Shown: positions 1-11,746 of the stretch, piece by piece
Numbering within the stretch: position 1 is the first letter of the stretch
How the letters are laid out: every line of letters starts with the position of its first letter
Source: Candidatus Hydrogenedentota bacterium
Lineage (GTDB): Bacteria; Hydrogenedentota; Hydrogenedentia; Hydrogenedentales; SLHB01
Assembly: GCA_003552765.1 (NCBI GenBank)
Contig: PUOI01000286.1
Span: 1 to 11,746 of the forward strand
Direction: 5' to 3'
Length of the DNA stretch: 11,746 nucleotides
The notes under the pieces: generated by a model
What the model was told of the DNA's origin: nothing
The model's database searches: none
The model's input: the letters and a program-made list of their open reading frames with translations, nothing else
Position numbers and translations under genes: made by a program

Positions 1-24
1 AGGATCGCAAGCCACTCCATCAAC

Positions 25-86
25 CGACCCCGGTAGGGGTCGCAGAACTCTCGTGCATGCAGCTGCTGCGACCCCTAAAGGGGTCG
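25..86. repeat. Two-hairpin palindromic repeat (element E0)
   Basis: Two 21-nt arms (25-45 and 66-86) are inverted copies of each other, matching at 19 of 21 positions across a 20-nt spacer. Each arm is also a small hairpin by itself, with the stem GACCCC/GGGGTC. The two mismatches between arms fall in the loops (GGTA versus TAAA), so the stems are intact. The layout, two local hairpins that can also pair with each other, is the same as in the elements at 298-346, 9890-9952, 11588-11650 and 11685-11729, although the sequence differs. No gene overlaps it. Confidence 0.75.
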
Positions 87-104
87 AGGGGCGGGGTTCT
101 GTTT

Positions 105-176
105 CCGGGGGTATCGCCCGCATGCTATCGCACGCGGCCTCAACCCCCGGCTACCAGCTGTCATCCCTACGGGATG
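105..176. repeat. Palindromic intergenic repeat region
   Basis: An 8-bp inverted repeat (CCGGGGGT at 105-112, ACCCCCGG at 143-150) encloses a GC-rich loop. It is followed by a compact hairpin, CATCCC-TAC-GGGATG, at 162-176. No believable coding region crosses it. It looks like intergenic repeat sequence, but no second copy is in the window, so dispersal is inferred only. Confidence 0.4.
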
Positions 177-297
177 GATTTGATGCATGTCAGGCTAAGC
201 CAGACATAACCAGGGTATCCACAAATTAAGGGTTGAGGAGGTACTAGTGGAGCGTCAAGCCAAAACTTGTTGACCGCCGAAGTGAACGCGCTACGAG

Positions 298-346
298 GTG
301 GCATGGCCTTCCAGGCCATGAATCACGGGCTGGAAGCCCGTACCAC
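298..346. repeat. REP/BIME-like two-hairpin repeat (element E1)
   Basis: The outer bases GTGG (298-301) and CCAC (343-346) are complementary. Between them lie two hairpins: 302-320 (8-bp stem, loop TCC) and 325-341 (7-bp stem, loop GGA). The left half (298-318) and the reverse complement of the right half (326-346) match at 16 of 21 positions. Four of the five differences form two compensatory pairs that keep each hairpin paired. Known REP sequences carry a GTAG-type tetranucleotide at the hairpin foot and form inverted pairs (BIMEs). Assigning this element to that class is an inference. Confidence 0.7.
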
Positions 347-432
347 TTCACCCCAAGAATTGGAGGCTACCCACAATTCAAAGGCGGAAAGTGTACTAGC
401 GCGGCAGAGCACGTTGAAGCTAATGCGTGGCA

Positions 433-483
433 TGAGGCAGACCCTGGGAAGGAGCGGTTTTCCCAGGGTCTGCCTCAGTTTTT
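433..483 (+). terminator. Strong Rho-independent terminator
   Basis: A perfect 18-bp inverted repeat (433-450 and 460-477) with a 9-nt loop is followed, after one G, by five T (479-483). No T-run lies on the other side, so the signal works on the plus strand. It would stop a transcript arriving from the left of the window and insulate the pilus operon. The first 432 nt contain no gene for it to serve, so the terminated gene lies upstream of the window or is non-coding. Confidence 0.8.
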
Positions 484-506
484 GATGGAAAAAACCGGCT
501 TTTGGG

Positions 507-535
507 TTGACATCCCGCTGGATATGGGCGACAAT
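507..535 (+). promoter_or_regulatory. Candidate sigma-70-type promoter for the pilus operon
   Basis: A perfect TTGACA (507-512) is followed by a 17-bp spacer and GACAAT (530-535, 4 of 6 matches to TATAAT). Transcription would start near 542. It lies 24 nt after the terminator and is the best-placed promoter for the downstream genes, though it implies a leader of about 320 nt. A weaker -10-like TATTAT at 706-711 lacks a good -35 and is less likely. Confidence 0.45.
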
Positions 536-541
536 AGGGAG

Positions 542-865
542 TAGCCAGGAGGCTGGGGGCAAAAGGGCCGGATGCTTGCCGTCCTGCTGGGCGCAAGGCA
601 ACCTTCCAGCCGCAGTGGACAGCGCGGCAAGGAAGGGTATTCATGATTCACGCGGGCGTTCGCGGGGCAAGACCCCGCGGGCGAGGTCCAGACCACTGTG
701 TGAGTTATTATCCTGTGGCGTGAACAAAAGTTTCATGGAGCGCCGGGGGGTGCTCTCGTGACAGGAGTACATCAAATAGAAAGCGCGGGCGCCAGGGTCT
801 GGCCTTCGGCGAACGCCCGGAACGCTTCAGGTGATACCCTGATGCCGATGAGAAGGGGTTGAACG
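542..865 (+). other. Long structured 5' leader, no gene seen
   Basis: This stretch between the putative start site and the first ATPase gene has only short overlapping reading frames with no recognisable product. It can form several hairpins in RNA. One at 601-638 has CCTTCC/GGAAGG plus GCCGC/GCGGC stems. One at 661-679 has a CGCGGGG/CCCCGCG stem. One at 781-827 has AAGCG/CGCTT, CGGGCG/CGCCCG and an inner GCCAG/CTGGC hairpin. It ends in a ribosome binding site, AGAAGGGG, at 851-858. I cannot assign it to a known riboswitch family. Confidence 0.4.
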
Positions 866-2719
866 GTGACGCAGACAACCTATACGCCACTATTCGGGCA
901 ACGTCTGGTCGAGCGCGGGATCATAACCCAAAAACAGCTCGATGAGGCGATACACAAACAGAAAACCTCCATGAACCGCCGCCGGCTTGGCGAGGTCCTT
1001 GTCCGGCTTGGCTACATTAGTAAGAGCCACATTACGGACGGCCTGGCCGACCAGTTGGGCATTCCCGTGGTGAATTTGCGGGAGCGGGAGATTTCGGATC
1101 GGCTCCGGAATATCATCGATGTCGGCGTGGCCCAGTTGTACCGGGTCGTTCCCGTGGGAGAAGAAAACGGCAAGCTGCTGGTGGCCACGGCCGATCCCAC
1201 CAACATCAATCAATTGGACAACCTAGAAAAGCTCATTGACCGCCCCATCCAACCTTGTCTCGCCACCCCCGAAGACATCAGCCAAGCCCTGGGCCGCTAT
1301 TACGGGTTGCACGACGCCACGGTCGAGACCATGCTTTCGACGGTGAGCACGCAAAGCACCTTGAGCACCATGAGCAGCATGTCCGCCGCCGGGGAAGCCA
1401 TGAGCAGCGTGGGAAGTCTTTCCGGCGACAGCTTGGCCAGCATCAGCGTGGATAATGTGGACTTCGAGGGCGACACCGGCGAGGGCGACGAGGAAGATGG
1501 CGACAGCCCGGTAGTCCGGTACGTTCACAACTTGATTTACGAGGCGTTCCGGCTGCGGGCCAGCGATATTCACGTGGAACCGGGCAAGACGGACCTCAAG
1601 GTCAGGTACCGGATCGACGGCGTACTGCATCGCATGCCGCCTCCGCCCAAACGCGCGCAGCCCTCGGTCATATCGCGTTTGAAACTGATGGCCGGCATGG
1701 ACATCGCCGAACGGCGCGTGCCCCAGGACGGACGTATCAAGCTGACCTTGGCGGGCAAGGTGGTTGACCTTCGCGTGAGCGCGCTTCCCGCCATCCACGG
1801 CGAAAGCATGGTGATGCGTATCCTGGACAAGAGCGGGCTGCTGCTGGGCGTGGGGCAGCTTGGATTCATGCCCGAAACGCAAAAGACATGGGAAGAGATT
1901 CTCTATACCTGTACGGGCGTTGTATTGGAGACGGGCCCCACGGGTTCCGGTAAGACGACCACCCTGTACGCTTCCCTCCACCAGTTGAACACGCCAGCCA
2001 GAAAGATTATCACGGTCGAGGATCCCATCGAGTATCAGCTCCCCGGCATCAACCAGGTTCCCGTGCACCACGAAATCGGGATGGACTTCGCGCGCGCCTT
2101 GCGCGCCATCTTCCGTCAGGACCCGGATATCGTGATGGTGGGTGAGATTCGTGACCTTGAGACGGCGGAGATCGCCATCCGGGCCGCCCTAACGGGTCAC
2201 CTTGTGTTCTCGACCTTGCACACCAACGATTCCGCAAGCGCGTTCATGCGTTTGGTCGATATTGGTTTGAAACCATTCCTCGTGGCGGCTGGCGTACGGA
2301 CTGTTTTGGCGCAGCGCTTGGTGCGCACCATCTGTACCCATTGCAAGGAGCCATACACGCCAACGGACATTGAGATGGAGCGGCTCGGATACCCCCTTGA
2401 TCTCAACAAAGTGGAGTTGTTCCATGGGGCGGGCTGTGAAACGTGCAATCAGACCGGCTATCACGGCCGGCTCGGGGTCTACGAGCTTCTGGTCACCAGC
2501 GACGATGTCCGCGACATGATCATGCACAACGCGTCCTCGAACCAGGTTCGCCAGCAGGCCCGCAAAGAGGGCATGAGCACCCTGCGGGAGGACGGGATTA
2601 AGAAGGTGTTGAGCGGCACGACGACCATTTCGGAGGTCTTGCGTGTTACGCCGCCTGATGCGCCGATGAAGGAAACCATGCCTACAGCACAGGACGCCGC
2701 CGGCGCAAGTCAGGGATAA
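866..2719 (+). CDS. pilB: Type IV pilus extension ATPase PilB (GspE family), first copy
   Basis: This cytoplasmic hexameric ATPase powers the addition of pilin subunits through the PilC platform. The 617-residue protein begins with an MshEN-type N-terminal domain made of two 24-residue motifs (9-32 and 40-63). The second keeps the RLG and the final Gln expected for c-di-GMP binding. A Ser/Thr/Met-rich and then acidic linker (about 157-216) precedes the ATPase core. The core has Walker A GPTGSGKT at 357-364, an Asp box near 382-390 (VEDPIEY), Walker B ending at Glu427, and a His box with His445 and His452. Two CxxC pairs (490/493 and 524/527) form the zinc site typical of PilB/GspE. The start is GTG, supported by AGAAGGGG seven bases upstream and by the N-terminal motif beginning at residue 9. 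A pilT gene follows after 79 nt. PilB and GspE are hard to separate by sequence, and pilT next door favours PilB. Confidence 0.95.
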
Positions 2720-2798
2720 CGAGAGTATACACAACGAGGAGCGTTCGCGCCGCGGCCGGGAGAACGGGAGCGCGCGGAAGTCCAAGGAGAAGCAGTTT

Positions 2799-3902
2799 AT
2801 GGCGTATGATATGGTAAGCCTCCTCCGCATGCTGGTGGACCGGGAGGGGTCGGACTTGCATATTACCGTGGGCAATCCCCCGGTGGGCCGCGTGCATGGT
2901 CACTTGCAGTTCTTCGGCGAAAAGGTGTTGACGGCCGAGGATACCGAACGCTTGATGAAGAGCATCGCCTCGGTGGACAACCAGCAAGAACTCCAGGAAG
3001 TTGGGGGCTCGGACTTTGGGTTCGCCTTCGAGGATATCGCCCGGTTCCGTGTGTCCATTTTCAAGCAAAAGGGCTACGTGGGGCTGGTCTTGCGTTTGAT
3101 TCCGAACAACATCATGACCTTCGAGGAGATTGGCTTACCCCAAAACCTCAAGGAAATCATCACGGTGCCGCGCGGGCTCATCCTGGTGACGGGCCCCACC
3201 GGTTCGGGGAAAACCACGAGCCTCGCCACGATGCTGGATTACATCAACACCAATTACGACCAGCACATCATCACGATTGAGGACCCCATCGAGTATTACC
3301 AAACCCACAAGAAAAGCATCATCATGCAGCGCGAAGTCGGGGTGGACGTCCCGACCTTCGCCGAGGCCTTGCGCCGCTCCTTGCGTCAAGACCCCGACGT
3401 GATTCTGGTGGGGGAAATGCGCGACCTCGAGACGATCGAGGCCGCCGTGACCGCCGCCGAAACCGGTCACTTGGTGTTCGGCACCCTGCATACTACCGGC
3501 GCGGTGCGTACGATTGACCGTATCGTCGACGCGTTCCCCACCAACCAGCAGGAGCAGATCCGGACTCAGCTCGCGGGTAACCTGAAGTCCGTGATTTCCC
3601 AAACCCTGCTGCCCAAGAAGAGCGGGTTTGGCCGCGTGGCGGCGTTCGAGATTATGGTGAGCACGCCGGCTATTCAGAACCTCATCCGCGAGAACAAGTC
3701 GTACCGCATTACCTCGGCCATCCAGACGGGGCACAAGTACGGGATGAACTTGCTCGACGAACACCTGCTTGCCCTCTACCGGCAGGGGGTGGTGAGTTAC
3801 GAGGAAGCCATGGCGAAGGCGCAGCAGCCCAACGAATTTGAATCCAGCGCGCGGTCCATGGGCTTGGAAGGCGCGCCGGGCCAAGCGGTTCAGGCTTCAT
3901 GA
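2799..3902 (+). CDS. pilT: Twitching motility/pilus retraction ATPase PilT
   Basis: This cytoplasmic hexameric ATPase powers pilus disassembly and retraction. The length, 367 residues, is normal for PilT. The N-terminal PAS-like domain carries the family phrase SDLH (18-21). The core has Walker A GPTGSGKT (132-139), an Asp box (IEDPIEY), Walker B with Glu206, and a His box with His224 and His231. The PilT-specific C-terminal motif appears as AIQNLIRE (291-298), close to the canonical AIRNLIRE, which separates it from PilB. There is no CxxC zinc site, also as expected. The ATG start has a good AAGGAGA (2784-2790) eight bases upstream. The last 20 or so residues are a low-conservation tail. The gene sits between two PilB-type genes, an uncommon position. 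It implies that the filament is retractile, which argues against a pure type II secretion system. Confidence 0.97.
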
Positions 3903-4012
3903 CGAAAGCCCGGCCTACGCCACACGAACGCACAGGCAAAGCGGCCGCCATGGCGCTTCCCGCGTCCGGGAAAGCAGAGCCACGGCGCATCAACAAGGAA
4001 CGGTAAACGGTT

Positions 4013-5752
4013 ATGGCAGTTACACGCGAACGGCAACTCGGCGACATACTTTTAGATAACGGCGTCATCACCCCGATAGAGTTGGACGAGGCGCTCCAAC
4101 GGCAGCGCGTGACGGGCGAGATGCTCGGCCGCGTCCTCGTGACCATGGGCCTGTGCGAAGAGCAGGACATCGTGGAGGCCCTGGGCCAACAAGCCGGCAT
4201 GGAGCGGATCGACATCGGCCGCCTCAGCGTCAGCGAGGAAACCCTTCGGATGCTGTCGGTCGACATTGTCCGGTTTTATAACGTGGTCCCTGTGCGGCTC
4301 AAGGACAACGTGCTCACGGTGGCGATGGCGGATCCCATGAACATAAGTGTGCTCGACGACTTGCGCCAGATAACGGGATGCGAAATCGCGGGCGCCATCA
4401 GCAATCAAGAGGCGATTACCAAGTTCATCGAAGACAACTACTCCTACCAGGCCGACTCCATCCATCAAACCCTTGAGGACCTCATCGCGCATACCGGCGA
4501 TTCCGAGTTGACCCTGGAGGAAACGGGCACGCACGAGCTGATTTCGAACGAGGACAATCTCATCGAACTCGCCCAAGAGCCCGAGGTCATCAAGATCGTG
4601 AACTTGGTCTTGCTCGAGGCGGTGCAGAAGCGGGGTTCGGATATCCATTTCGAGGTCTATGAAGAGGATTTCCGCATCCGGATTCGCGTGGACGGCGTGC
4701 TGCAAGAGGTTGTGAGTCCCCCCAAGCACATGGCGCTGGCCATCGTGTCCCGGTGCAAGATCCTGAGTAACATGGACATCGCGGAACGGCGCCTGCCTCA
4801 GGACGCGCGGATCGAATTGAAGGTGGGCGACTCGATCATCGATATTCGCGCCGCCACCTTGCCCACGTTGTACGGCGAGAATTTCGTCATGCGTATCCTC
4901 GACCAAACCGCCGTTCGCGTGGATCTCAATCAGTTGGGGTTCCCGGAAGATGTTCTGAAGAAGATCCACACCACCATCCAGAAGCCCAACGGCATCTTCC
5001 TCTGCACTGGTCCCACCGGTACGGGGAAGACGACAACGCTGTACGCCTGCATTAACGAGTTGAATCACGAAGGGGTCAAGATTATCACCACCGAGGACCC
5101 CGTGGAAATGCAATTCGACCAGATCATTCAGGTCCAGGTGAAGGAAGACATCGGGTTGACCTTCGCCTATTGTCTTCGCTCCATCTTGCGTCAGGACCCC
5201 GATATCATTCTGGTCGGTGAGATTCGTGACCTTCCCACGGCTCATATCGCGGTGGAGGCGTCGCTCACCGGTCACATCGTGCTGAGCACGCTTCACACCA
5301 ACAGCGCGCCGGAGACCATCACGCGTTTGCTGGACATGGAGCTTGAGCCGTTCCTCATCACCAGTTCGCTGGAGGCCGTGATGTCCCAGCGCCTGGCGCG
5401 CGTCATCTGCCGGCACTGCCGCGAGCCCTACCGGCCCGATGACGAGGAAATGGATACCCTGGGGGTGCCGCACAAATGGCGGAAAGACCCCAACCTCCGC
5501 ATGTTCCGGCCCAAGGGGTGCCCGGCCTGCGATTACATGGGCTATCTCGGCCGGAGTTCGCTGGTCGAGTTCCTGGAGGTGGACGAACCGGTGAAAGACA
5601 TGATCCTCAGTCAGGCCACGGCGCACGAAATCCGCGATCACGCCCGGAAATATCAGGGCATGCGGACCATGCGCGAGGAAGGAATCATCGCGTGTGTCCG
5701 AGGCAAGACCTCGCCCGAGGAAGTGATTACCCACACGGATAGGTATATTTAA
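4013..5752 (+). CDS. pilB: Second PilB/GspE-family extension ATPase
   Basis: This 579-residue AAA-type secretion ATPase has the same layout as the first PilB but is clearly divergent. The N-terminal MshEN domain shows the canonical 24-5-24 pattern (8-31 and 37-60). The leading Arg is replaced by Gln8 and Met37, which may weaken c-di-GMP binding. The linker is acidic rather than Ser/Thr/Met-rich. The core has Walker A GPTGTGKT (333-340), an Asp box (TEDPVEM), Walker B with Glu403, a His box with His421 and His428, and zinc-site cysteines 466/469 and 503/506. All catalytic elements are present, so it should be active. The ATG start has AAGGAA (3995-4000) twelve bases upstream, a slightly long spacing. 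It lies directly before pilC, so it may be the ATPase matched to that platform. It could equally be called GspE. Confidence 0.95.
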   Translation: MAVTRERQLGDILLDNGVITPIELDEALQRQRVTGEMLGRVLVTMGLCEEQDIVEALGQQAGMERIDIGRLSVSEETLRMLSVDIVRFYNVVPVRLKDNVLTVAMADPMNISVLDDLRQITGCEIAGAISNQEAITKFIEDNYSYQADSIHQTLEDLIAHTGDSELTLEETGTHELISNEDNLIELAQEPEVIKIVNLVLLEAVQKRGSDIHFEVYEEDFRIRIRVDGVLQEVVSPPKHMALAIVSRCKILSNMDIAERRLPQDARIELKVGDSIIDIRAATLPTLYGENFVMRILDQTAVRVDLNQLGFPEDVLKKIHTTIQKPNGIFLCTGPTGTGKTTTLYACINELNHEGVKIITTEDPVEMQFDQIIQVQVKEDIGLTFAYCLRSILRQDPDIILVGEIRDLPTAHIAVEASLTGHIVLSTLHTNSAPETITRLLDMELEPFLITSSLEAVMSQRLARVICRHCREPYRPDDEEMDTLGVPHKWRKDPNLRMFRPKGCPACDYMGYLGRSSLVEFLEVDEPVKDMILSQATAHEIRDHARKYQGMRTMREEGIIACVRGKTSPEEVITHTDRYI

Positions 5753-5840
5753 CCAATATGGGGGCGCGCCCAGGCCTCGCACGGCCGGCGGCGGTCCCCG
5801 CGGTTCCATATGGTAAGTTGGTTACGAGGAGGGAGTTCCC

Positions 5841-7076
5841 GTGGCAAAGTTTGCGTATAAAGCGGTAAACCGCGACGGCAAAGAGACCTTCGGCATTCTG
5901 GAGGCCGAAAGTCAGGCCTTGGCCATTAACGATATTCGCAATCTCGGGTTGCACCCCACCCAGATCCGGCCGGCCCGGAAAAGCGACGAGAAGAAAGCCC
6001 GGAGCGATAAGCGCGGGTTGAGCGAGTTCTACATTGGCGGGGTCAAGACCAAAGAGGTCGTGATCATGACCCGCCAGCTCGCCACCCTCATCGGCGCGGG
6101 CATGGCGTTGTTGCGGAGTCTCAACATCCTCATCGCGCAGATGAAGCCCTGCAAGCTGCGCGACATCCTCCGGGAAGTAGTGACCGACGTCCAGACCGGC
6201 TCTACCCTGAACGAGGCCCTCGCCAAACACCCACACGTCTTCGACCGGCTTTTCGTCAACATGGTGCGCGCCGGCGAAACGGGCGGTACGCTCGAAGAAG
6301 TCTTGGCCCGCCTGGCCGACTTCATGGAGCGGCGCCAAGCCTTGAAACGGCGTGTGCGCAAGGCCTTGATCTACCCAATCTGCGTGCTCGGGTTCGCCCT
6401 GGTCATCGTGCTGGGCATTCTGATGTTCGTGGTGCCCACCTTCGCCGAGGTGTTCGCGGATTTCGACGCCGAATTGCCAGCGCCCACCCTGTTGCTTATC
6501 GACATCGGCGACTTCGTGCTGTACCGCTGGTGGATCGGGCTGCTCATGGTCAACAGCATCATAATCACGATCAAACTGATCGGTAAGAGCGAGTACGTTA
6601 AGATTGGCCGGGATTACGCCGTTCTCAAGATCTGGATGATAGGCGGGCTGGTCACCAAGATCGCCGTGGCCCGGTTTGCCCGCACCCTCGGCACCCTCAT
6701 CCGTTCCGGCGTGCCCATCCTGGAATCCTTGCGCATCACTAAGGAGACCATCGGCAACGCGGCCATCGAAAACGCCGTGCAAAAGGTTCACGACAGCATT
6801 AAGGAAGGCGACACCATCGCCCGGCCCTTGGACGAGGCCAAGGTGTTCCCCGCCATGGTCGTGAACATGATCGACGTCGGCGAAGAGACCGGTAGCCTCG
6901 ACCAGATGCTTATGAAAGTGGCCGACATCTACGACGCAGAGGTCGAGGAAGCCGTGGACGCCATGCTCCAGCTCCTTGAGCCCATACTCATCATCGGTTT
7001 GGGCATCATCATCGGCTTCATCGTGATCTCGCTCTATCTGCCGATTTTCTCGCTGGCCGACCAAATGGCCGTCTAA
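5841..7076 (+). CDS. pilC: Type IV pilus inner-membrane platform protein PilC (GspF family)
   Basis: This polytopic inner-membrane protein sits at the base of the pilus and couples the cytoplasmic ATPases to subunit addition and removal. The 411-residue length is standard for PilC/GspF. The N-terminus has the family pattern of aromatic residues and glycines (KFAYKAVNRDG). Two repeated T2SSF domains follow, at about 75-198 (beginning TRQLATLIGAG) and 277-400 (beginning ARTLGTLIRSG), each with the conserved GET/GEETG segment. Three hydrophobic helices are visible at about 178-200, 229-249 and 379-403. The start is GTG with a strong AGGAGGGAG (5827-5835) just upstream. Two ATPase genes of extension type precede this single platform gene, so both may compete for the same protein. 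Confidence 0.96.
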   Translation: MAKFAYKAVNRDGKETFGILEAESQALAINDIRNLGLHPTQIRPARKSDEKKARSDKRGLSEFYIGGVKTKEVVIMTRQLATLIGAGMALLRSLNILIAQMKPCKLRDILREVVTDVQTGSTLNEALAKHPHVFDRLFVNMVRAGETGGTLEEVLARLADFMERRQALKRRVRKALIYPICVLGFALVIVLGILMFVVPTFAEVFADFDAELPAPTLLLIDIGDFVLYRWWIGLLMVNSIIITIKLIGKSEYVKIGRDYAVLKIWMIGGLVTKIAVARFARTLGTLIRSGVPILESLRITKETIGNAAIENAVQKVHDSIKEGDTIARPLDEAKVFPAMVVNMIDVGEETGSLDQMLMKVADIYDAEVEEAVDAMLQLLEPILIIGLGIIIGFIVISLYLPIFSLADQMAV

Positions 7077-7091
7077 TCGCGCCATGTTTCG

Positions 7092-7106
7092 GGTATAATT
7101 GCAGTA
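7092..7106 (+). promoter_or_regulatory. -10-like motif upstream of the major pilin gene
   Basis: GGTATAATTGCAGTA contains a perfect TATAAT (7094-7099) in the 118-nt gap before the pilin gene. No convincing -35 is seen 16-18 bp upstream. A motif matching at 13 of 15 positions precedes the next gene (8233-8247). A separate promoter for an abundant filament subunit would make sense, but this is inferred from the motif alone. Confidence 0.4.
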
Positions 7107-7194
7107 GCTATGTACAACGCCGCCCGCCGCGCGAGCGCGAAAAGGGGGGAGTGTGTGTGTTTAACCAAATGGAAAGCATAAGGAGTGCCATCGC

Positions 7195-8208
7195 ATGAAG
7201 CGCAAGTTGGGGTTCACGCTAATCGAATTGCTGGTGGTGATCGCCATCATCAGTATCCTGGCCGCCATCGTGGTGCCCAACGTCAACAACTGGATCGCTC
7301 GGGCCCGCATGACCAATACCGTGGCCGAAGTCCAAGGCATCGAACTCGCCATGACGCAGATGCTCAACGACGCCCAAAGACAGAACGCGAGAGCTATCTT
7401 TGACCGGTTCCCTACCCCGCAGGAGCTGTATGGCACAGTATCGCCGCAGCATGACTTGTACGCGGATGAACTGGATGCGGTTAGGGAATGGCTGCGTGCG
7501 GACGAAAATCCGTTCCGGGCCGAGGTCGAATTGTACACCAGGGCGTTCTATTCCCTTCTGCGGCAAGGGCGTAACGCCGGGGACCCCGAACACTCGGACC
7601 CAGGGGCTATCCGTCTAACGTTTGGTGAGGAAGGTGAGGAAGCTGGGACATTCCTCGTGATGTGGGTTGGGATTGATCCCAGTGTTCGTCCCAATTTGGG
7701 CACCAGCTATATGGACGTCGGGCGTGATCCCTGGGACAACCGGTTCCGGATTTGGCCCGGCCCCTGGAACCGCGACATACAAAACGATTACGGACCGCCC
7801 CGGGACGAGCAGTCGGCGGAGAACGAAGGGGTCTATCAATTTGAGCCTTACCCCGCAGACACCAGGCATGTGCCGACTCCGTTCCGCTCCTTCCGTGAAG
7901 GCGAAGAGACCGCCGCGGGCGAATGGATTCCTTACCAGTATACATCCACTGAGCGTAACCGGGCCGAGCGTGATACGCCGGGCAACCCGCGCGCTGATTA
8001 CCGGTACGGGTTCCCCGCGCCAACCGATCAGCAGTTCTACATCTACTCCACGGGGGCCGATGGCGAGTCCAACCAGAATTACAGGCTGTTTCGCGGTCAC
8101 ATAGAGGATATCTATGAGGCCCCGTTTGATGTCGAGCGCATTGGCGGCGGCGACGACATCAACAACTGGGATAACAACCAGGGTTGGAGCCGCTGGTACA
8201 CCAATTAA
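7195..8208 (+). CDS. GspG-like major (pseudo)pilin with type IV prepilin signal, oversized
   Basis: This is probably the main subunit of the filament. The short basic leader MKRKLG is cut by prepilin peptidase after Gly6, exposing Phe7 with Glu at mature position 5, followed by a long hydrophobic helix (to about residue 30). Two GspG landmarks are visible. One is DPWDN at 178-182 (compare DPWGNPY in GspG). The other is STGADG at 285-290, matching the SxGxDG calcium-site loop near the end of GspG. GspG proteins are usually about 140-150 residues. This one has 337, with roughly 80 extra residues before and about 85 between the two landmarks. The extra parts are rich in charged and aromatic residues. 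The ATG start has TAAGGAG (7179-7185) nine bases upstream. It could be named a type IV pilin rather than a T2SS pseudopilin. Confidence 0.88.
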   Translation: MKRKLGFTLIELLVVIAIISILAAIVVPNVNNWIARARMTNTVAEVQGIELAMTQMLNDAQRQNARAIFDRFPTPQELYGTVSPQHDLYADELDAVREWLRADENPFRAEVELYTRAFYSLLRQGRNAGDPEHSDPGAIRLTFGEEGEEAGTFLVMWVGIDPSVRPNLGTSYMDVGRDPWDNRFRIWPGPWNRDIQNDYGPPRDEQSAENEGVYQFEPYPADTRHVPTPFRSFREGEETAAGEWIPYQYTSTERNRAERDTPGNPRADYRYGFPAPTDQQFYIYSTGADGESNQNYRLFRGHIEDIYEAPFDVERIGGGDDINNWDNNQGWSRWYTN

Positions 8209-8231
8209 TCCCCAACAACCCCGGATTCATG

Positions 8232-8247
8232 TGGTATAGTTGAAGTA
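8232..8247 (+). promoter_or_regulatory. Extended -10-like motif upstream of the GspH-like gene
   Basis: TGGTATAGTTGAAGTA has an extended -10 form (TGG before TATAGT at 8235-8240). It closely resembles the motif before the pilin gene. The best -35 at the right distance is only CCAACA (8212-8217), which an extended -10 could tolerate. It may drive the minor pilin genes separately from the major pilin. Confidence 0.4.
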
Positions 8248-8252
8248 CGGGA

Positions 8253-8287
8253 CGCGCCAGCCCCGCCACTAGGGGCGGGGCGGCGCG
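8253..8287 (+). other. GC-rich hairpin between major and minor pilin genes
   Basis: The stem is CGCGCC (8253-8258) with GGCGCG (8282-8287) and CCCCGCC (8261-8267) with GGCGGGG (8274-8280). The two parts are separated by an AG/C internal loop and closed by a 6-nt loop. No T-run follows on either strand, so a standard intrinsic terminator is unlikely. It ends 22 nt before the GTG start of the GspH-like gene. Such a hairpin could protect the 3' end of the abundant pilin mRNA or limit expression of the genes downstream. That role is inferred. Confidence 0.5.
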
Positions 8288-8309
8288 CTAAAAGCGAGGG
8301 ACTCAATTG

Positions 8310-9392
8310 GTGAGCAGGCAGAAAGCCCAGCGCGGGTACACATTAGTTGAAATCCTGGTGGTGGTGGCGATCCTCTCCATCATCCTTGGCGTTTCCGCCC
8401 CCGCCATGGTGCGGTTCGCGCGCATGATGGGGGAAGACACACGCGCGGCCGCCCACGAAGTGCAAACCCTCATGCGCTGGGCTCAGGTCCACGCGGCCTC
8501 CAATGGCGTTGATACCGCCGTCGTCTATAACATCAACGTCGTCCCCGATGGCATGGCCGGCGATGACCCCGTCCGCATCATCGACGGCATGGGCCTCATG
8601 CGCCGGCTCCGCAGGGATGAGTTCGATGAAACCCGGCAGATGCTGAGACTGCTCTATCCCGAGGAGCAGTATCCCGACGAGCGCGCGTTCATAGAGGACC
8701 TGGATCGCCGCCGCCTCGTGGTTCCGCTTTCCATGGAAGACGAAGGCGGCTACATATTCCGTCAACTGCCCCAGGGGACCTGCATCCTTCCCGCATACGC
8801 CTATTATGGAGCCGAGCCGAGCTACGCCATACTGGACGGATACGAAGTCGCCCTGGATCCCATTGATATACACGGCGCAATGGTCGATCGGGGCGAGCGG
8901 CAGTTTCTGCGGTCCCATTATCCTGGCATGAATCAACATGAAGACGATCCTGTCCGGCTCGATGGCTTGAACCGGCGTCTTAACGGGTATAGAAGCGTCC
9001 AAGTGCTCGATCTCGCCAATAACGATCTGGAAGAGTTCCTGGAAGACGGCTATATCCCGCCTATCGAAGAGCTGTTTATTCAGCCGCGCCCAGACCCCAT
9101 CGACGACGCCTACGACCTGAGTTACGACCGGCGGGTCTGGAGTTTCCCCGCCCATATCTTCCGGCCGGACGGACAGATTGAAACGCCGGCCGACGGCCGT
9201 TCGCGTCTTGAGGTAAAGGTCGGGGTCACGCCGAATAGCGGGTTCGACGATCGTTTTGTGGAAGACGCCGAACTGCCGATGGAATTCCTCGTGCCGGTAG
9301 AGGCGGGCGTGCTTGATCCCACGCAAGTCCTTTGGGAACGCGGGCACACGCTGGAGCTATTCACGACAACGGGCCGCGTCCGGCTCGAATAG
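8310..9392 (+). CDS. GspH/FimT-like minor pseudopilin, oversized
   Basis: This is probably a minor pilin of the filament tip complex. The leader ends in QRG, with cleavage after Gly9, giving mature Tyr1 and Glu5 (YTLVE), then a hydrophobic helix. The following segment (about 35-70) has the GspH/FimT pattern of an amphipathic helix and first strand (AAHEVQTLMRWAQ, then NGVDTAVVYN). The C-terminus ends in a TTGRVRLE strand, also as in GspH. The length is 360 residues, about twice a usual GspH. The central and C-terminal parts are acidic and unrecognised. I prefer GTG at 8310, eight bases after GAGGGA (8296-8301). The adjacent in-frame TTG at 8307 is an alternative that adds one residue. It follows the pilin gene by 101 nt, and the next gene starts 18 nt after its stop. 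Confidence 0.8.
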   Translation: MSRQKAQRGYTLVEILVVVAILSIILGVSAPAMVRFARMMGEDTRAAAHEVQTLMRWAQVHAASNGVDTAVVYNINVVPDGMAGDDPVRIIDGMGLMRRLRRDEFDETRQMLRLLYPEEQYPDERAFIEDLDRRRLVVPLSMEDEGGYIFRQLPQGTCILPAYAYYGAEPSYAILDGYEVALDPIDIHGAMVDRGERQFLRSHYPGMNQHEDDPVRLDGLNRRLNGYRSVQVLDLANNDLEEFLEDGYIPPIEELFIQPRPDPIDDAYDLSYDRRVWSFPAHIFRPDGQIETPADGRSRLEVKVGVTPNSGFDDRFVEDAELPMEFLVPVEAGVLDPTQVLWERGHTLELFTTTGRVRLE

Positions 9393-9410
9393 ACTGTAAG
9401 GGGGGACCCC

Positions 9411-9875
9411 ATGCATCACCGTGGACCACAGTGGAACGCCAACAGCGGCGCGACCTTGCTCGAGGTGCTCGTCGCCCTCGGCATCCTGATCATAGGCATC
9501 ATCGGGACGGTCCAGCTTTTCCCGCTCTCCCTCGAACAACTCCAGCGATCCAACGAAAGCACCGTCATTTCCCGCATGGCCGGTTCGCGCCTCGACGAGG
9601 TGCAAACCACCGGAGGCGAGAGCATTACGTTGCAACGTCTCAAAGAGAGTTCGCGATTCCGCTACGTGCCGGGCGTGACCGCGCCCCCGGAAGACAATGG
9701 CGGCAACAATGACTTCGACGGGATGCAACTGCCGGAGGATCGCCAGTTGTATGAGAGTTACACCACCAGCGTGCAACGCGTACCCGGCGCGCCCAATCTG
9801 CACCGGGTCACCATGAACGTGCGCATGCACGATGGCCGGTATAGGCAATATGTCACGTATGTGACCCGGAAATAG
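9411..9875 (+). CDS. PilV/GspI-like minor pseudopilin
   Basis: This small prepilin-like protein (154 residues, normal for the family) is probably part of the tip-initiating complex. Cleavage is predicted after Gly13 (NSG^ATLLE), leaving Ala at mature position 1 and Glu18 as the +5 Glu. The helix that follows, LLEVLVALGILIIGIIG, is typical of the PilV/GspI family. So is the later segment of alternating Arg, Leu and Glu residues, SRMAGSRLDEVQ. Mature position 1 is Ala rather than the usual Phe or Met, which is tolerated in minor pilins. The ATG start is preceded by AAGGGGGGA (9398-9406). The gene follows the GspH-like gene by 18 nt, consistent with co-transcription. After its stop the DNA changes to repeats. 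Confidence 0.85.
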   Translation: MHHRGPQWNANSGATLLEVLVALGILIIGIIGTVQLFPLSLEQLQRSNESTVISRMAGSRLDEVQTTGGESITLQRLKESSRFRYVPGVTAPPEDNGGNNDFDGMQLPEDRQLYESYTTSVQRVPGAPNLHRVTMNVRMHDGRYRQYVTYVTRK

Positions 9876-9889
9876 GAGACATCCGCAAC

Positions 9890-9952
9890 GTAGACGCGGC
9901 ATCTTGCCGCGTTGATGGAGCGTTTGAGCAAGCGGCAGGATGCCGCTTCTAC
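9890..9952. repeat. REP/BIME-like two-hairpin repeat (element E2)
   Basis: GTAG and CTAC mark the ends of this 63-bp element. Two hairpins lie inside: ACGCGGCA-TCT-TGCCGCGT near the left end and AAGCGGCA-GGA-TGCCGCTT near the right. A copy in the same orientation at 11588-11650 is identical in its 25-nt left and 23-nt right arms and differs only in the 15-nt centre (57 of 63 identical). GTAG at the hairpin foot and the inverted pairing are hallmarks of REP/BIME elements mobilised by RAYT transposases. No such transposase gene is in the window. Confidence 0.85.
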
Positions 9953-9964
9953 ATTTCCGCCAGC

Positions 9965-9979
9965 AGGGCCGGGGGATGT
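9965..9979. repeat. 15-bp repeat, copy 1 of 3
   Basis: AGGGCCGGGGGATGT occurs three times: here, at 10123-10137 and at 11667-11681. Copies 1 and 3 follow the 63-bp two-hairpin elements by 12 and 16 nt, and copy 2 ends the inverted-repeat element at 10009-10137. The association suggests one composite repeat unit. Confidence 0.7.
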
Positions 9980-10008
9980 AGGTCATATTGGACGTACGAG
10001 GGAGGTTA

Positions 10009-10137
10009 ACATCCCCCTTGATCCCCCTTCAAAGGGGGAATTGGAGAGGTGATGGTCCCTTAACCCCTTACGAAGGGCGAATGGGTGCGGGAAAATTCCC
10101 CCTTTGAAGGGGGCAGGCCCGCAGGGCCGGGGGATGT
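10009..10137. repeat. Composite inverted-repeat element (MITE-like)
   Basis: The ends ACATCCCCC (10009-10017) and GGGGGATGT (10129-10137) are complementary. Inside, a perfect 20-bp inverted repeat lies at 10023-10042 and 10094-10113. Each arm of it contains the CCCCCTTCAAAGGGGG-type palindrome. The element encodes no transposase, so it could only be moved in trans. A related partial copy sits at 10211-10234. The 9876-10243 interval holds nothing else recognisable. Confidence 0.65.
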
Positions 10138-10210
10138 ACAATGAGGCGTGACAGGACAAAGGACAATGGCTGACATGGCGCTACTCATACAAAGCGGCAG
10201 CACCCCACTC

Positions 10211-10234
10211 AATCCCCCTTCCAAGGGGGATTTG
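10211..10234. repeat. Palindromic repeat at the 5' end of the GspJ-like gene
   Basis: CCCCCTTCCAAGGGGGA (10214-10230) is a variant of the palindrome in the element at 10023-10113. It lies within the reading frame if translation starts before it, where it would encode NPPSKGDL. It lies just upstream of the ATG at 10244, where its AAGGGGGA could act as a weak ribosome binding site 13 bases away. It therefore makes the start of the next gene uncertain. Confidence 0.65.
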
Positions 10235-10243
10235 GCCGCCGGC

Positions 10244-11557
10244 ATGTTCCATCCCGCCCCAGCCCGTCCGGCGGCGGACGGTTCGGGGAGACCGGGCCGC
10301 GCCGGCTTTAGCCTCATCGAACTGTTGGTGGCCGTGGCCATCATGAGCACCGTCATGGCCGGCGTCACCGCCCTGTTCCTGGGCTCGCTGCAAACGGTGC
10401 AGCGCGGCCGCAGCATGATGGGCGGCTACGAACTCGCGCGCACCACCCTGGAAACCGTCCAGCGCGACCTCGGCGCGGCCTTCACGGCCAGGCAGTGGGG
10501 CGACTACTACACCTTCTACGGCACGCCCATCGGCTTCACCTACGTCGGCGTGGCGCGCAACGACGGCGACAACCTCCAGCGCGTGAGCTACGCCGTGTTC
10601 CAGGGACATATGACGTGGGCGGATCTTGAGCAGGGACTATGGGGCCAGTGGGGCACGGACCGGTTCGTCATTGAAGAACCGGTGTTCGATGACGAGCTTA
10701 ACGAGTTCGTGGACATGGAACGCGAAGTGACGGCGTATACGCTTGTGCGCTATGTCGAACCCGAGGTTGGCGACCTGGACAACTTCATGGTGACCACCCC
10801 GGATGGCGATCGCGTCCCCATGACCGAACTGGACCCAGAGGTCCATGCGCCGGTGGATATCGAGGGCAGGTACAACGAAGAGTATGCAGACCAGATCTGG
10901 AACCTTCAAGAGGAATTGGAGGAAGAACTTGAGCTAATGGTTCGAGCGTTGGCGGCGCCTGACGGCACCCCCCTGGATGAAGTGCTCACGGAAAGTCAGT
11001 TTCAGCGGGTCGTGGACCAGTTCCGCGAGGCCAAGAAACGCGAACTCTGGATCCGCATGCTGTCGGGGGACCCGCGGCTGCCCCGTTTTTGGGCGGATCC
11101 CTTCGATTTCACGGATCCCCGCCCGCGCATGCGCGACTATGCCATCGCTGAAAACGTAGTGGTGACGCCCCTTTCCGAGTATGAGGGCGCCGAGTTCATA
11201 CCGCCCATGCTGCCTTTCCGCGGGGAGCCGTACTTCGAGTACGGCCGGTTTGAGCACCGGGAAGAAGACGGTGTTCAGACGCTGCCCTATTGGCTCGACT
11301 GGCACAATGCGGTGGATGGAGTGTATGAAGACGGGGAGTTTTTAGAAGGGGAATTCCTACCGGCAATGTTGGCTGGCTCCCCGTTTCGCCCGCGCGTTCC
11401 CGAGATGGTGGCCCTCCGGCTGCCTTTTGTGCTCGAAAGCCCGCATCCCACCGCGCCGCATTTCCAGCGCGTGTTTGAGAACGAGGTGCGCATCCCGACG
11501 GGGCATACCCGCCGCCCCGCCGTGGATTGGGAATGGACCGCGGGCGCCGGGGAGTGA
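10244..11557 (+). CDS. GspJ-like minor pseudopilin, oversized
   Basis: This is probably a minor pilin of the tip complex. With the ATG used here, a 21-residue Pro/Ala/Arg-rich leader ends in GRAG, and cleavage gives FSLIE with Glu at mature position 5. A hydrophobic helix (LLVAVAIMSTVMAGVTALF) follows. The next segment fits GspJ: a helix with ARTTLETVQRDLGAAF, then strand-forming sequence TPIGFTYVGV and RVSYAV. The protein has 437 residues, about twice a usual GspJ. Much of the C-terminal half is acidic and includes a Glu-rich probable helix (QEELEEELELM). The reading frame is open back to GTG 10148, with ATGs at 10166 and 10175. Those starts would add a long leader partly encoded by a repeat, so I chose 10244, although its ribosome binding site is weak. 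Repeats flank the gene on both sides. Confidence 0.8.
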   Translation: MFHPAPARPAADGSGRPGRAGFSLIELLVAVAIMSTVMAGVTALFLGSLQTVQRGRSMMGGYELARTTLETVQRDLGAAFTARQWGDYYTFYGTPIGFTYVGVARNDGDNLQRVSYAVFQGHMTWADLEQGLWGQWGTDRFVIEEPVFDDELNEFVDMEREVTAYTLVRYVEPEVGDLDNFMVTTPDGDRVPMTELDPEVHAPVDIEGRYNEEYADQIWNLQEELEEELELMVRALAAPDGTPLDEVLTESQFQRVVDQFREAKKRELWIRMLSGDPRLPRFWADPFDFTDPRPRMRDYAIAENVVVTPLSEYEGAEFIPPMLPFRGEPYFEYGRFEHREEDGVQTLPYWLDWHNAVDGVYEDGEFLEGEFLPAMLAGSPFRPRVPEMVALRLPFVLESPHPTAPHFQRVFENEVRIPTGHTRRPAVDWEWTAGAGE

Positions 11558-11587
11558 TGTATAAGCGGCGCCCCCGCCGCTTGCAAT

Positions 11588-11650
11588 GTAGACGCGGCAT
11601 CTTGCCGCGTTGCAGTAGCGCTTAAGAAAGCGGCAGGATGCCGCTTCTAC
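11588..11650. repeat. REP/BIME-like two-hairpin repeat (element E3)
   Basis: This is the second copy of the 63-bp element at 9890-9952, in the same orientation. It has identical arms and six differences in the 15-nt centre. It begins 30 nt after the stop of the GspJ-like gene, so the two copies bracket that gene as direct repeats about 1.7 kb apart. The 15-bp repeat AGGGCCGGGGGATGT follows at 11667-11681. Confidence 0.85.
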
Positions 11651-11684
11651 TTTGCCGGTGGCCCGTAGGGCCGGGGGATGTTCA

Positions 11685-11729
11685 TACCGCCGCCTTCCAG
11701 GCGGCGATGCCGGCAGGATGCCGGCGGTA
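11685..11729. repeat. Two-hairpin palindromic repeat (element E4)
   Basis: Two 21-nt halves (11685-11705 and 11709-11729) are inverted copies matching at 17 of 21 positions, with a 3-nt spacer. Each half is a hairpin: GCCGCCT-TCC-AGGCGGC and GCCGGC-AGGAT-GCCGGC. All four mismatches fall in two base pairs inside the stems and keep the pairing. The loop bases TCC and GGA repeat the pattern of the element at 298-346. No gene is visible from 11558 to the window end. Confidence 0.75.
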
Positions 11730-11746
11730 CGGGGTCTGGCAGCCGG

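Follow-up and report, generated by a model that had tools for sequence, protein, structure and literature searches.

Four repeat elements, E1 to E4, in a contig of a Candidatus Hydrogenedentota bacterium (PUOI01000286.1 of assembly GCA_003552765.1) are very probably inverted pairs (heterodimers) of GTAG-class repetitive extragenic palindromes (REPs), drawn from three REP families and moved by a REP-associated tyrosine transposase (RAYT). The window, the whole stretch of 11,746 nucleotides analysed here, is the entire contig (G000:C614) of a draft genome that totals 3.29 Mb over 640 contigs and is 83% complete. The evidence consists of the anatomy of the elements, their copy number, their mostly species-specific spread, the relatives that flank RAYT genes elsewhere, the covariation of stems between lineages, and the lack of compensation among resident copies. 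A sequence-only reading had assigned the elements to the REPs and bacterial interspersed mosaic elements of RAYT type; the GTRG heads, the inverted doublets, the copy number and the same or nearly the same REPs beside RAYTs in other genomes bear this assignment out.

Each of the four elements consists of two inverted REPs with a GTGG or GTAG head (GTAC/ATAC in E4), a stem of 7-8 bp and a TCC or TCT loop. In E1, the left REP (298..320, plus strand) combines a GTGG head with the stem CATGGCCT/AGGCCATG and the loop TCC, and the right REP (325..346, minus strand), read on its own strand, has a GTGG head, the stem ACGGGCT and the loop TCC. In E2, the left REP (9890..9912, plus) carries GTAG, the stem ACGCGGCA and the loop TCT, and the right REP (9930..9952, minus), read likewise, GTAG, the stem AAGCGGCA and the loop TCC. 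Both REPs of E3 (11588..11610, plus; 11628..11650, minus) belong to the E2 family, with a match of 88% over 75 bp. The left REP of E4 (11684..11706, plus) has a degenerate ATAC head, the stem CGCCGCCT and the loop TCC, and its partner (11709..11730, minus) reads GTACC GCCGGCA TCC TGCCGGC on the minus strand. The foot is therefore GTGG at both ends of E1 and GTAG at both ends of E2 and E3, and the stems of 7-8 bp with a loop of 3 lie within the REP class, which is GC-rich with stems of 6-9 bp and short loops.

Perfect hairpins (stem of at least 7, loop of 3) number 9 in the window, against 1.2 expected from 50 first-order Markov resamples, and by list count 8 of the 9 have the loop TCC, TCT, GGA or AGA, against 0.08 expected; the two-hairpin architecture holds for E1 to E4. 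Of the 41 loop-3 hairpins with a stem of at least 7 in 40 sampled contigs (303 kb), 21 have TCC or TCT, or the complement of either, as the loop. Stem differences between the two halves are compensated, at half positions 7/21 and 10/18 in E1, 6/22 in E2 and E3, and 9/17 and 11/15 in E4, as the sequence-only reading had tabulated. Its single exception, position 5 of E1, is also confirmed: the right REP of the window's E1 departs from the family consensus at one base of the stem foot, which breaks the pair. The ability to fold in two ways, claimed for all elements, is present in E1 to E4, but the energy minimum (DNA parameters) is the long hairpin in E2 and E3 (-22.3, against -19.7 and -20.0 as two hairpins) and two separate hairpins in E1 and E4. 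The complementary loops are likewise present but form no separate feature, because the inverted partner of a TCC/TCT-loop REP shows the complement automatically; as an independent signal they are rejected.

The elements are multicopy and mostly species-specific in their spread. The left hairpin of E1 occurs in exact form 72 times in its own genome, once in the sister-species genome (G001, 78% complete), 4 times in G005 and 0 times in 27 other relatives, and a reversed control pattern gives 0 matches. The right hairpin of E4 has 33 matches in its own genome, 15 in G001, 3 in G002 and 0 in 27 others. Judged by the spread of these two hairpins across relatives, the REP families are mostly species- or genus-specific. 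Hairpins of the E2/E3 type number 13 in their own genome and 128 across 7 of 30 genomes, own included, and the E2 doublet has 11 further BLAST matches in its own genome, 7 of them over 66-75 bp (including E3) and 4 partial. A loose E1-class pattern yields 648 matches in 25 of 68 genomes of the phylum, 116 of them in its own genome, and 0 in the control. The further copies expected genome-wide are thus plentiful, with 59 E1 doublets standing in distinct contexts and the intergenic position checked within the window.

RAYT genes flanked by the same inverted REP are found in other genomes, exact for one half per doublet and otherwise with compensated differences (L194, L165, L240). The RAYT set, taken from named genomes, comprises 80 loci kept of at least 509 relatives; by hand sorting of record titles, 64 of the 80 come from Planctomycetota, Acidobacteria or Verrucomicrobia. 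The counts of genomes with this RAYT type (44 of 60 and 36 of 68) are probably too high, as many of the high-E-value hits resemble partial matches to other Y1 groups. The right-half hairpin of E1 is found in exact form at the RAYT loci L156, L196, L204 and L208, with near relatives at L165 and L194. At L156 (G012), a short RAYT remnant is accompanied by an incomplete doublet, and the reading frame runs into the E1 right-half hairpin. At L165 (G032), GTGG-CATGGGCT-TCC-AGCCCATG hairpins stand at both ends of the RAYT. At L194 (Phycisphaerales), one doublet is present at 2538 and at 3177, that is, at both RAYT ends; of its 49 bases, 4 depart from the E1 consensus, and these make up two compensated loop-closing pairs. 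The left hairpin of E2 is exact at L149 (G027) and L140 (G039), with three copies each; the L149 REPs lie only downstream of the RAYT because the contig begins inside that gene, and G027 holds 43 copies of the E2/E3-type pattern. At L240 (Phycisphaerales), the exact right hairpin of E4 occurs six times, on both sides of the RAYT, and its opposite-strand partner, GTACC-GCCGGCT-TCC, is one stem pair away from the left half of E4. The cut-off of 80 bits of the REP transposase profile NF047646 (REP_Tyr_transpos) is passed by four of six RAYTs (L165 with 81.1, L194 with 81.7, L240 with 87.1 and L205 with 80.1), and L149, cut by the contig end, and L129 score 57 and 60.1. Among solved structures, TnpArep 4er8 (E 2.4e-7) is the only one related to the RAYT profile.

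Two side observations concern the RAYT genes themselves. The RAYTs of L166/L213 and L123/L170 lie in frame within very long open reading frames of 1418 and 1466 codons, which by eye, from their motifs, are presumably akin to the DNA methyltransferases of restriction systems. REP sequence also lies inside the ends of RAYT reading frames at L156, L167, L127, L128 and L130, where it is read as the peptides GTGFQPV, GRDARAP and DVPVG/DGDVGAPR; in-frame REPs within RAYT genes of subclass 2.4 are described in Quentin et al. 2018.

Between REP lineages, the stems covary. This is seen with patterns in which paired positions are left free and with a scan that sees the head and loop alone; at each end of the 80 RAYTs, the scan covered 200 bp of outer flank and the terminal 30 bp of the gene. 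Correctly spaced GTR[GC] heads and TCY loops occur at 285 sites there, of which 137 form all 7 pairs and 27 have one mismatch; 0.0 fully paired sites are expected from Markov resamples, and 53 different stems at 51 loci are observed. When one pair of the E2 pattern is left free, it is paired, counted by eye, in 127 of 128 hairpins, as C-G or A-T, with the exception in G017. When three pairs of the E1-class pattern are left free, they are paired in 145, 148 and 147 of 150 matches, against shuffled means of 53, 114 and 78, and they occur in six combinations; these are the 150 listed of the 648 matches, from 8 of the 25 genomes, the window's own not among them. Of the 25 distinct sequences in this set, 15 are fully paired and the other 10 contribute 10 copies to the 150, in keeping with rare copies that have decayed. 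The copies are related and so do not represent independent covariation events. Stem class tracks the RAYT tree: 32 changes are counted, whereas 200 shuffles of the labels average 56.2 and never fall below 49. The tree was made quickly, 20 of its 86 inner branches being starred and 37 open, and the stem classes were grouped by hand. The variety of stems under a constant architecture, to which the sequence-only reading had drawn attention, is therefore real and follows RAYT phylogeny.

Among resident copies, the stems decay. In the 59 E1 doublets, the left half has the GTGG head in 53, and the right half has GTGG in 21 and GTAG in 15. The left half is biased towards intact copies, most loci having been fetched by the exact left pattern, so that the right half alone is informative. 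Right halves are intact in 42 of the 59, and the remainder contain 41 changed stem pairs, of which 39 are one-sided (4 of them giving G-T) and 2 two-sided, with 0 of 41 compensated. Five badly decayed or gapped copies contribute 25 of the 41; without them, 12 copies hold 16 changed pairs, all one-sided and none two-sided. The earlier statement that nearly all changes are compensated thus holds between the halves of E1 to E4 but not among resident copies. The same division applies to the proposed selection on the hairpins themselves, for which uncompensated copies had been named as the contrary outcome: it is upheld between REP lineages, and copy-by-copy selection is rejected. Because lineages covary yet resident E1 copies are uncompensated, stems are kept while a REP lineage propagates and not in each copy, which argues that the covariation reflects selection for copying by the transposase, as opposed to a host function exerted at the individual sites.

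The same counts bear on the likeliest of the alternatives, itself very improbable, that each hairpin is retained for work at the RNA or DNA level, as a terminator, mRNA stabiliser or protein-binding site, and that the stems covary for that reason. E2 and E3 lie 14 and 30 bp after a stop codon inside a pilus operon, and such roles are hypothesized for REPs of other bacteria in Di Nocera et al. 2013 (PMC3733652). Set against these positions are the complete lack of compensation in the changed right-half pairs, the fact that the sister species has no E1 upstream of its orthologous genes, and the mostly species- or genus-specific distribution of the REP families.

A slightly less probable alternative makes E1 to E4 non-autonomous relatives of two IS200-like transposases, since two PF01797 (Y1) genes, L001 and L002, are present in the same genome. 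These genes are nearer to IS200 transposases (76.2 and 50.1 bits) than to the REP transposase profile (21.3 and 22.5 bits, far below the cut-off). The stretches of 1.9 and 1.8 kb around them contain other palindromes, CCGTCC-cttca-GGACGG at L001 and GACCGC and CGACCC at L002, and no TCC-loop hairpin; the two genes are accordingly rejected as movers of E1 to E4. The arrangement of a non-autonomous IS200/IS605 relative, with the same palindromes at the ends of a Y1 gene, is seen for E0 alone and for none of E1 to E4. E0 (25..86), which the sequence-only reading had counted as a fifth member of the family, is another palindrome family, CGACCCC...GGGGTCG; with the stem CGACCCC, the loops GGTA/TAAA, no GTRG head and another transposase, it is removed from the GTRG/TCC class. 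E0-type palindromes adjoin the IS200-like Y1 gene at L002 on the one side covered and flank a Y1 gene of the sister species (L062) on both sides. As a side observation, window 1-249 is a composite repeat with CGACCCC and CCCCCGG palindromes and at least 12 matches in G001, and relatives of its palindromes lie beside IS200-like Y1 genes.

Several points weigh against the assignment of E1 to E4 to RAYT-moved REPs. No LPHW-type RAYT is found in the host genome or in G001 by the three queries used (an alignment of seven RAYTs, the L156 protein, and NF047646 at E <= 1); of the RAYT/IS200-like genes for which the sequence-only reading had proposed a search, the IS200-like Y1 genes are present. The E1 left, E2 right and E4 left halves have no exact copy in the 100 RAYT loci examined. 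The head of E4, GTAC/ATAC, departs from GTRG. Since E1 is embedded in a unit of about 150 bp, the moved or amplified piece may exceed the doublet. The sister genome holds at least four diverged E1-unit matches (C492, C414, C445 and C337) and one exact hairpin (C492), and the E1 family is therefore older than the species. As to the first point, a host RAYT could be missing from the assembly, because the draft is 83% complete and 18 of the 72 E1 hairpins start within 350 bp of the first base of a contig, against about 4.9 expected (hand count), a sign of assembly breaks near the repeats; the gene may have been lost or may lie inside an unassembled stretch. A cognate RAYT is also not strictly required in the same genome, as REPtrons can be missing according to PMC3733652.

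The E1-bearing unit extends over 244..399, with similar direct repeats at its borders (216-247 and 367-399). About 50 bp on each side of the doublet is common to 26 aligned E1 copies, and the unit has at least 54 BLAST matches; these counts are lower bounds, 40 of 122 candidates having been scored in one search and 40 of 163 in the sister-species search. In several contigs of its own genome the unit forms tandem arrays with a period of 151-155. Window 487-557 has a match of 86% in the sister species and window 803-5111 one of 91%, and neither E1 nor E0 is matched in the G001 stretch upstream of the block orthologous to window 487-983. Insertion or loss would produce such an absence. The sister stretch also lacks a match to window 558-802; with flanks that are not clean, the reading as an empty site of E1 is limited.

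The two halves of a doublet tend to differ. Perfect-stem REPs occur in both orientations at 86 of 101 RAYT loci, and the most frequent sense stem is identical to the most frequent antisense stem in 26 of the 86 and different from it in 60, by one to three positions in 53 of these. Within a RAYT locus, 215 of 369 REP pairs of the same orientation are identical, against 87 of 468 of opposite orientation. These counts require perfect stems, cannot show covariation and are used for half differences alone. By position, the differences number 28 at the loop-closing pair, 20 at the third pair from the loop and 2 at the second; the loop is closed by T or G in the sense half and by A in the antisense half at 18 loci, against 5 reversed (uncorrected for relatedness), and GCC often stands in one half where the other has GGC. 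It is possible, though doubtful, that the halves are kept different with a fixed handedness relative to the RAYT, as a code for left and right ends. If so, each half would stay a perfect transposase substrate while the pair could not form a long perfect palindrome, and the code would answer the unexplained excess of heterodimers. In Di Nocera et al. 2013 (PMC3733652), this excess 'has no obvious explanation' and protection from SbcCD is suggested; the puzzle becomes testable on hundreds of RAYT loci.

These half differences also tell against mutational template switching in quasi-palindromes, without selection, as the source of the paired changes, a very unlikely explanation to which one E1 copy (L037, minus, offset 1625), with the loops ACC and GGT instead of TCC and GGA, lends some colour: switching makes halves alike, yet the commonest stems differ at most of the RAYT loci compared, and it should have left at least some compensation among the 41 changed pairs of the resident E1 copies.

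For the RAYT-moved REP doublets preferred here, the proposed course is as follows. The RAYT (TnpA-REP) would recognise the GTRG head and a short stem-loop in single-stranded DNA and would copy or move the REP pair into intergenic sites, each RAYT lineage having its own stem. A stem mutation would spread only when the hairpin remains paired, giving compensated differences between lineages and between halves, and single copies would decay freely after insertion. E1 to E4 are inferred to have been moved in this species by RAYT cleavage and joining.

Among the genes of the window are those of a type II/IV pilus: T2SSF, two T2SSE/MshEN ATPases and a third, smaller ATPase of the T2SSE type, along with three proteins that have an N-methylation motif. 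E2 and E3 lie inside this operon. Two other repeats are present in the window. Window 10008-10138 contains CCCCCTTCAAAGGGGG-type palindromes, a separate repeat family with more than 10 matches in G001. A long inverted repeat, GAGGCAGACCCTGGGAA...TTCCCAGGGTCTGCCTC, perhaps a terminator, occupies window 434-476, ahead of the conserved block at 487; the sister has a different hairpin (CCCGGAAAAGGGCGCTTTTCCGGG) at about the same place.

In conclusion, RAYT/REP elements are placed in Candidatus Hydrogenedentota and, through the 80 RAYT loci, in many little-studied phyla. A text search of the papers available found none that joins Hydrogenedentota and repetitive extragenic palindromes, and the phylum is not named in the available part of PMC3733652. 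For other bacteria, the literature already describes GTAG heads, heterodimers, complementary changes and coevolution with the RAYT; what this analysis adds is a match of the E1 doublet across phyla, a contrast of lineage covariation with copy decay, and a data set for the heterodimer question. According to Di Nocera et al. 2013 (PMC3733652), GTAG REPs occur in Proteobacteria, Cyanobacteria, Chloroflexi and the Planctomycetes-Verrucomicrobia-Chlamydiae group; heterodimers, variants with GTGG and alternative complementary residues in the stem are among the features described. Like that super-family, the present elements have a GTAG/GTRG/GTGG foot, stems of 6-9 bp and short loops, form inverted dimers that fold as one or two hairpins and heterodimers of different stems, and belong to several families per genome. 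Unlike it, they share the TCC/TCT loop across many stem families and phyla, and E1 lies inside a tandem-amplified unit of 150 bp. Complementary stem mutations and RAYT-REP coevolution are reported for gammaproteobacteria by Nunvar et al. 2010 (PMC2817692); inverted REPs flanking the RAYT, complementary stem mutations and concordant REP and RAYT trees are common to both systems, whereas the host phylum and the RAYT sequences differ, and the REPs of the window's genome are found without a RAYT. Quentin et al. 2018 distinguishes RAYT subclasses and finds that nearly half of the genes are accompanied by REPs of more than one subfamily. With the E. coli system, the elements share inverted pairs of two REP types around a transposase gene; the stems of that subclass are mostly longer and bulged, and those seen here are short and perfect with a 3-base loop. 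In the REPINs of Pseudomonas fluorescens, the mobile unit is reportedly the REP doublet, as here. Unlike in those REPINs, conserved arms are present here also outside the doublet.

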